DNA of 64,000 nt from Halopiger djelfimassiliensis. GTDB lineage: Archaea > Halobacteriota > Halobacteria > Halobacteriales > Natrialbaceae. Shown one piece after another: positions 14,741 through 16,363 of the stretch. Below the pieces are notes generated by a model, which did not search any database, had not been told where the DNA came from, and worked only from the letters and a program-made list of their open reading frames with translations. The stretch spans positions 811,600 through 875,599 of the forward strand of contig NZ_HG315685.1 of the NCBI RefSeq assembly GCF_000455365.1, in the 5' to 3' direction. Numbering within the stretch: position 1 is the stretch's first letter; the number at the start of each line of letters is the position of its first letter. The translations under genes were made by a program, and so were the position numbers.

Positions 14741-14831
14741 CCTCCTCCGGCTGAAGGCGGAGGAATCCCGAGTCAAGCGAATCGAAGATTCGCGTACATC
14801 GCGAACCTCCGGTTCGCTCAGCGTTGGGATA
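14741..14831 (-). ncRNA. Structured right end of the tnpB element; candidate omega RNA 3' part
   Basis: Directly after the tnpB stop, three stem-loops stand in a row: 14801-14817 (7-bp GCGAACC stem), 14777-14793 (7-bp GCGAATC stem) and 14744-14763 (6-bp CCTCCG stem, 8-nt loop). The element appears to end near the sequence GATGTCAACG (minus strand, about 14740-14731). In IS200/IS605-family elements the tnpB 3' end and the RNA overlapping it form the guide (omega) RNA, and sense-overlapping RNAs have been described for haloarchaeal IS1341 genes. That this copy is transcribed is inference. Confidence 0.5.
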
Positions 14832-16143
14832 TTAGGGTTTGCAGTCTCCCCGTTCTCTCGGTGTGAACCGTCCGCTCTCGCGGTCGAACAGCAAGACTCC
14901 AGGCTGTGCCAACCAGCCGTTACTCATATCCCCGGTCGGGGGACTCTGAGTTATCTTTCTGCGAATGTTCACCGCACCGTTCACGTCCGCGTTCATCGTC
15001 GTCTCACACGACGAACAGACGTATAGACCACGCTCCACGCGGTTCCCATCTCGAATTTGTCCGCAACACGAACACGTCTTCGAGGTGTTCCCCTCGTCTA
15101 CTCGGTCAACGAGGATACCGTGTTCTTCGGCCTTGTATTCGAGAAGGCGAACGAATCGGTCGAACTCCCATCCGTGGAGTTTCTTGTTCCCCGACTGGCC
15201 CCAGTTCCGCGAGTCGCCATTCTCATCCTCGCGGATGTCGCTGAGGTCGCCAACCGCGATATTCCCCACACCCTTTTCGACACACCGCTCAACGATGTGC
15301 TTGCTGAGGGTGTGAAGGAAGTGGTCTTTGCGCCGGGAGAGTTTCCGGCGAGCCTTCAACGCACGTTTCGATGGCCCGTTCTCGCCTTCGGTCTGGTACT
15401 CCTCGCGGGTGAAATAGTGCTTGTCTTCTTTCAGCGTGTTCCCCGGATACAACTCTGAGGGGCCGTCCTCGTAGTCGATGGCGAGATAGTTGCTGATACC
15501 AAGATCGATACCCGCCGTGTTGTCGCCGGGAGCGTCCCCAACTGGAATCTCTTTCTTACAGACGAGGTGCAGTTCCCACTCGTCTCCGTTCCAGACGGCA
15601 CGCACCTGCTGGATGTTCTCGACTTCTACGTCGGGCCGGGTTTCGTACTCCGCGAGGATGAAGTCTGACCGTCCGTCTTTCAGATTCCAACCTTTCGAGA
15701 GGCGGAGTTGACCGTGTTTGGCGTCGTGCTTGATGCCTTTCTGTTTCCACGTCATGGTGGAGCGCGGGTGTCGGTCGCCACGTTTCCGGTAGCCCGGTGG
15801 ATTGTTGCCGTCGTCGGAGTTGTACCAGCCGTTAAACGCTTCAGCAAGCTCTTCAAGAACTCGCTGTGCTCAATGAGCAAAGCTCATTGGCATCACGAGA
15901 CGGCTTCGCCGTCTCGAACGAACTTGACTGAGAATGCAGGTCACTATAGCGTTCGTGGTTTTTCAACTCCGATTTCAGTTCGGCTTCGTCGGGTATCTCA
16001 CCGTCTTCATCCCACCGTTCTTGGATGTAGTAGCGTCCGACGTTCCACAGTTTGGATGCGGAGAACCCGCACTGGTCGAGGTCGTCACGAACCTGACTGT
16101 GGTTCGTGATGCGTGCGACGTAGGTGCGGGTCGTCTCCAGCAT
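14832..16143 (-). pseudogene. tnpB: IS1341-type transposase-associated TnpB, interrupted
   Basis: The first part (ATG 16143; MLETTRTYVARITNHSQVRD) runs to about 15923 and the rest resumes at about 15866 with QRVLEELAEAFNGWYNS, then continues in one frame to the TAA at 14832. Together these make a full TnpB of about 415 residues, but a 56-bp insertion between them shifts the frame. RuvC-like parts include GIDLGISNYLAIDYE (first Asp) and NADVNGAVNI (last Asp); the zinc finger CSCC...CSSC is present. No tnpA (Y1 transposase) is found, so this is a solo IS1341 type. A TATA-like TTTAATATAC lies near 16170-16180. A shortened protein could start at ATG 15755 but would lack the N-terminal domain. Confidence 0.85.
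15867..15922. repeat. 56-bp insertion with two perfect hairpins inside tnpB
   Basis: The segment splits the TnpB reading frame between codons for ...HSQSS and QRVLEEL. It contains an 8-bp stem with 3-nt loop (15871-15889, CAATGAGC/GCTCATTG) and a 9-bp stem with 3-nt loop (15896-15916, CGAGACGGC/GCCGTCTCG). Exact edges are uncertain by a few bases. No flanking target duplication is obvious. It may be a small palindromic mobile element; other copies cannot be seen in this window. Confidence 0.6.
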
Positions 16144-16363
16144 CGTACTGTGTTCATAACCAGTTATGAAATAGAGTATATTAAAGCCCGTGTTTGACGT
16201 GGAATATCCGGGCCTGTCGGTGCCGGTGGAATGTGTCACTAAGTGACGGCGCGTATCCACGGCCGTCGTCACCCGCGCGTCACCGGCCAGACGGTACGCG
16301 GGGGATCGGAAAAGGGCCGCTGACGAACACTGCCCCGTCCTCGAGGGAGGAGTGTCGACCGAG

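Follow-up and report, generated by a model that had tools for sequence, protein, structure and literature searches.

An IS1341-type (TnpA-less IS605) element on the minus strand of a 64-kb window of the Halopiger djelfimassiliensis genome (GCF_000455365.1, NZ_HG315685.1, positions 811,600-875,599 of the forward strand; 'the window' denotes this whole stretch) carries a tnpB gene that is split by a short, hairpin-rich segment. What is this segment, and how did it come to lie within the gene? The original prediction had placed two perfect hairpins of 8 bp and 9 bp, each with a 3-nt loop, at the break, and both are found there. It had also proposed a 56-bp insert whose removal restores TnpB. The insertion and the restoration stand, but the size does not: deletion of exactly 55 bp gives a single open tnpB frame of 418 aa counted from the first Met, whereas deletion of 56 bp leaves a frameshift. 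We consider the segment very probably a non-autonomous REPIN-like mobile element of a large haloarchaeal family, and this twin-hairpin family of tiny mobile repeats is apparently undescribed so far.

Structure of the insert and of its host element

The insert and the features around it are listed in Table 1. The minus-strand sequence of the insert is TCGTTCGAGACGGCGAAGCCGTCTCGTGATGCCAATGAGCTTTGCTCATTGAGCA, with the layout TCGTT-[CGAGACGGC gaa GCCGTCTCG]-TGATGC-[CAATGAGC ttt GCTCATTG]-AGCA. This unit, hereafter the module, is characterized by two hairpins framed by the constant linkers TCGTT / TGATGC / AGCA. As given for the window, the loops read TTC in the first hairpin and AAA in the second, and the foot of the latter, TGC...GCA, is able to pair around a single bulged A. 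A hairpin with a 9-bp stem and a 3-nt loop occurs only here across the window (chance expectation ~1), and the twin hairpins fold at z = -6.5 relative to shuffles. Chance hairpins are ruled out by this search, the fold score and the stem covariation described below.

Table 1. Features of the split IS1341-type element, in window coordinates
Feature	Position	Strand	Remarks
55-bp twin-hairpin element, probably mobile	15867..15921	-	Edges set by homologues with an empty site and by recovery of the open frame
First hairpin, 9-bp perfect stem, 3-nt loop	15896..15916	-	TCGTT before, TGA after
Second hairpin, 8-bp perfect stem, 3-nt loop	15871..15889	-	
tnpB 5' part, codons 1-75, ends ...HSQSS	15922..16152	-	Frame open up to the insert
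tnpB 3' part, 344 codons from QRVLEEL	14832..15866	-	OrfB_IS605 and Cas12f1-like_TNB domains
Second, different twin-hairpin insert, 49 bp, CTGA-hp-GATGTAC-hp-TTGA (hp, hairpin)	14773..14821	-	Edges uncertain by ~2 bases
IS1341-type right-end palindrome, ending ...GGAGGATGTCAA	14732..14772	-	Right end common to IS copies with different flanks

The insert lies at codon 75/76 of tnpB. The N-terminal frame left by the split has 98 codons, of which 75 belong to TnpB and 23 are contributed by the insert together with the shifted frame; the C-terminal frame, which holds both Pfam matches (OrfB_IS605 and the Cas12f1-like TNB domain), has an internal first ATG and is unlinked to the N-terminal one. The other copy of this IS in the same genome is 91% identical overall and has an identical insert. 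Rfam matches nearby are sot0042/sot2652 (omegaRNA) and one tRNA; the module is covered by no Rfam family.

Empty and filled tnpB sites

Across a genome set with one genome per species, the tnpB site is filled in 26 copies and empty in 82. Intact homologues, over 80 in number and drawn from many genera of haloarchaea, read AGT^CAG at the junction, with no base extra or missing, and comparison of filled with empty homologues reveals no target duplication at the insert site. These intact homologues rule out the insert as a part of the normal tnpB frame. The genome search and the alignment across the break that the original prediction had called for accordingly agree with it: copies of the insert exist in other haloarchaea, and no intact tnpB reading frame that includes its sequence was found. 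The orientation of the insert is identical in all filled tnpBs.

In a tree of 108 tnpB copies, for which the insert was left out of the alignment and in which some long rows are uncertain, the filled copies are scattered and intermixed with empty ones. The state switches at least 13 times, at least 10 of these switches being forced by well-supported branches, and five filled tnpBs, each from elsewhere among the clades, coexist in a single genome (G100). The sharpest view is offered by two IS copies at different loci, one filled (L036, genome G009) and one empty (L053, G081), which are ~99% identical and differ by exactly 55 bp at the site, again without target duplication; SNPs are absent up to 69 bp from the site, and the next differences are 70 bp and 270 bp off. 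Judged by sequence, the fixed site has here gained (or lost) its insert precisely, the pairwise comparison fitting either direction.

Many tnpB pairs with saturated synonymous sites (dS 1.3-1.7) have inserts that differ at only 0-1 of 55 positions. At the same site, other inserts (L099, L037, L038, L218) have entirely different stems, swapped in a compensating manner, with differences at 18-19 of 55 positions. Near-identical inserts in such diverged genes, together with different-stem inserts at one site, imply that simple inheritance or simple constraint does not account for the insert; the plain reading would be a homogeneous mobile source for the tnpB inserts. The notion of a small palindromic mobile element is thus borne out by a clean insertion in an IS1341-type tnpB, with many copies in the same genome and in other haloarchaea.

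Haloarchaea recombine readily. Hence, the insert might have arrived in tnpB on one or a few occasions and then spread by homologous recombination or gene conversion among the copies, with no transposition, as could also suit the conserved flanks of the insert in all copies and the intermixing of filled and empty copies on the tree. We regard this as unlikely: identical inserts reach other tnpB subfamilies, saturated at synonymous sites, that retain their own subfamily flanks; inserts with different stems are found at this one site; the module is present in unrelated repeats with clean empty sites; and L036, as one clear case, matches its own empty sister as far as the junction itself. Gene conversion over short tracts may nevertheless contribute to the spread, among tnpB copies, of a unit that otherwise appears to be mobile. 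The tnpB site offers a clean assay: the target is a single fixed one, filled and empty alleles are numerous, and the ends of the ~55-bp insert are defined. With it, the movement of transposase-free SMR-like elements in haloarchaea becomes directly testable.

Fate of the host gene

Further frame breaks are found in 8 of 24 filled tnpB copies versus 3 of 82 empty ones (p = 2.5e-4), and the insertion therefore inactivates tnpB; filled copies tend to decay. The dN/dS of unbroken filled copies, taken against the nearest empty copy, is 0.095, and that of empty copies is 0.108, a low value in the former being expected if the insertion is recent. These figures bear on a reading in which the insert is an archaeal mini-intron cut from the RNA, or is bypassed in translation, so that TnpB stays functional. 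The exact and clean insertion, the constant linkers and the covarying stems are compatible with such a role, as are the low dN/dS and the 16 of 24 filled copies that are otherwise intact in frame. A gene interrupted by a mini-intron would be functional and not decaying, however, and the filled copies have an excess of disruptions; recent insertion would equally give a low dN/dS; the module is also present outside coding genes; and inspection of the site by eye found no matching pair of take-off and landing codons for a bypass. The combined pattern of frame breaks and dN/dS argues against splicing or bypass, either of which we deem highly improbable. Split tnpB annotations in haloarchaea can be insertions rather than sequencing errors.

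A wider family of modules in haloarchaea

Of 125 genomes of the taxonomic family, 117 have matches to a covariance model built from 10 modules, with up to 33 per genome; a loose scan of the genomes for the linker pattern was too unspecific, its yield being at or below that of a reversed control. Most sampled genomes of the order contain the module. Outside the order almost none match: one weak match each is seen in two genomes, and three low-GC genomes (G151, G161, G168), which belong to a single genus of the same phylum, have 11-18 modules each. The modules of these three have the same right half, GATGC-hp-AGCA (L326, L335, L337); at L326 (1501-1554) the module lies within the 3' end of a TnpB-like gene.

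Modules range from 53 to 60 bp. Among 62 aligned copies, 98.6% of the base-pair cells are standard and 187 double changes are seen, with none of 500 shuffles as good. Most of the distant members are symmetric: they combine TCGTT-hp-TGA with TCA-hp-AACGA, i.e. a hairpin unit with its own reverse complement, and have the inverted ends T(C/G)GTTCGA...TCGAAC(C/G)A. The left end reads TCGTT in 99 cases and TGGTT in 45, and the tail AACG in 48 and AACC in 34. The tnpB member, including that of the window, is an asymmetric version with a diverged right half.

There are four contexts of the module: the tnpB codon (A), two kinds of longer multi-hairpin intergenic repeat (B and C), and an IS1341-related PATE-like repeat (D), which ends in an IS1341-type right end and likewise has clean empty sites. 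The description of the element as a parasite of this transposon family applies only in part: the tnpB site and the PATE-like repeat are favoured as hosts, but the majority of copies in the wider family sit elsewhere, in the intergenic multi-hairpin repeats. Repeats of type B (L206, L217, L143) and type C (L203, L205, L245) feature several further perfect hairpins besides the module; their sequences run GTGGCGCGCGCTG... and GTTGAGCG...GAGGTCGTCGGCG..., and they have no Rfam match. The module at L249 and L252 is inverted inside the same outer repeat as at L203. Hairpins that are otherwise identical have the loop GAA or TTC (L036, L153, L321 versus L033; L045), as if inverting in place.

At four loci from several genomes (L224, L336, L310, L327), the module is enclosed, in either orientation, by the two arms of a conserved palindrome, GCCTCGGGG-TCAAG-CCCCGAGGC, and an intron-bearing tRNA gene lies ~150 bp from the module at L224. 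Insertion always inside a target palindrome, as L224 and L336 suggested, was rejected, palindromic flanks being found at 9% versus 6%, not above chance. No one obvious left-flank tetranucleotide is common to the targets of the module subtypes.

Relation to known repeats

REPIN-like doublets are known from bacteria: the REPINs/BIMEs are REP doublets (PMC3116915), and CGTC-tagged REP dimers occur without a dedicated transposase (PMC3733652). We found no widespread archaeal counterpart in the literature searched, nor any description of the module in that on haloarchaeal palindromic repeats, intergenic repeats and REPs. The module resembles REPINs as a short, extragenic, inverted two-hairpin unit that is mobile, non-autonomous and present in many copies, with conserved tags beside variable, compensating stems. 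Two inverted REP-like units acting as one are recognizable in the symmetric members, the window member being diverged and asymmetric. Unlike REPINs, the module is archaeal, it is tagged by TCGTT / TGA instead of GTAG or CGTC, a perfect stem is present in each of its halves, and the window member enters a fixed codon of a transposon gene. Nor was a linked RAYT or Y1 gene found, the single Y1_Tnp of the genome lacking module ends.

Compared by description, the nearest archaeal elements are found in Haloquadratum walsbyi: its SMRs and PATEs, often located in IS605-type elements (PMC3119063). SMR-A and SMR-B are 80-110 bp long, transposase-free and without target duplication, and many of them have hit IS605-type transposons and PATEs; SMR-A, at about 110 bp, has prominent terminal inverted repeats and targets near-terminal palindromes of IS605/PATE elements (PMC3119063). 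Like the SMRs, the module is tiny, transposase-free and free of target duplication. Terminal inverted repeats are clear in its symmetric members and weak in the tnpB member. It differs from the SMRs as described in its length, in its twin hairpins with covarying stems and in its tnpB site, which is inside a gene rather than in a terminal palindrome. The targets seen are a codon of IS1341-type tnpB and a repeat of PATE-like type.

With PATEs the module shares a non-coding nature, two palindromes near the ends and a lack of target duplication, and terminal-only PATEs of 52 bp, close to its size, exist in Haloquadratum (PMC3119063). It could accordingly be such a terminal-only PATE, in which the left and right end hairpins of one IS605-type transposon have become fused and are mobilised by that transposon's TnpA. 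This we consider rather unlikely, since no full-length transposon with module ends came to light, the single TnpA locus surveyed, that of the genome itself, being without them, and since symmetric family members have inverted ends, a feature absent from PATEs.

A possible mode of movement

With conserved linkers holding two short hairpins in a fixed frame, the segment is very probably a non-autonomous, REPIN-like element. Comparison of copies shows that it inserts repeatedly, in one orientation and without target duplication, at a fixed codon boundary in the IS1341-type tnpB of haloarchaea. We infer that a transposase acting in trans recognises the feet of the hairpins together with the linkers and copies or moves the unit as folded single-stranded DNA, with tnpB as a conserved target; a TnpA/Y1-type HUH enzyme is the most plausible candidate. 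IS200/IS605-type TnpA reads hairpins and their feet, without target duplication (IS608/ISDra2, REPIN/RAYT systems), and for this reason is the natural candidate. By this analogy, mobilisation by TnpA as single-stranded DNA is plausible, if somewhat short of an even chance. The ends of the genome's own TnpA element were rejected as a source of the module for want of a match, and we know of no Y1 transposase with module flanks. TnpA counts do not track the module: several genomes without any detectable Y1 carry 10-19 modules, and filled tnpBs occur in 14 of 16 genomes with Y1 versus 79 of 109 of the rest, with no association (p = 0.36).

Twin-hairpin inserts at the element end

The second, 49-bp insert of the same IS (Table 1) sits in its 3' omegaRNA / right-end region, and relatives are without it or have one hairpin only. 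It belongs to a separate omegaRNA/right-end twin-hairpin family that also occurs in L035, L047 and L055. We tentatively suggest that haloarchaea may harbor an undescribed, order-wide REPIN-like twin-hairpin superfamily, one branch of which has evolved to hit a single conserved tnpB codon precisely and repeatedly, while a second twin-hairpin family targets the omegaRNA end; RNA-guided transposons would thus be hosts of site-specific single-stranded-DNA parasites.

At the equivalent of this second insert, the other IS copy of the genome has one hairpin left, consistent with slippage between GCGAA repeats. Independent twin-hairpin inserts, with the linkers GCAA and GGCA, are also seen inside the right-end palindrome/stem of related IS1341-type elements at L108 and L139.
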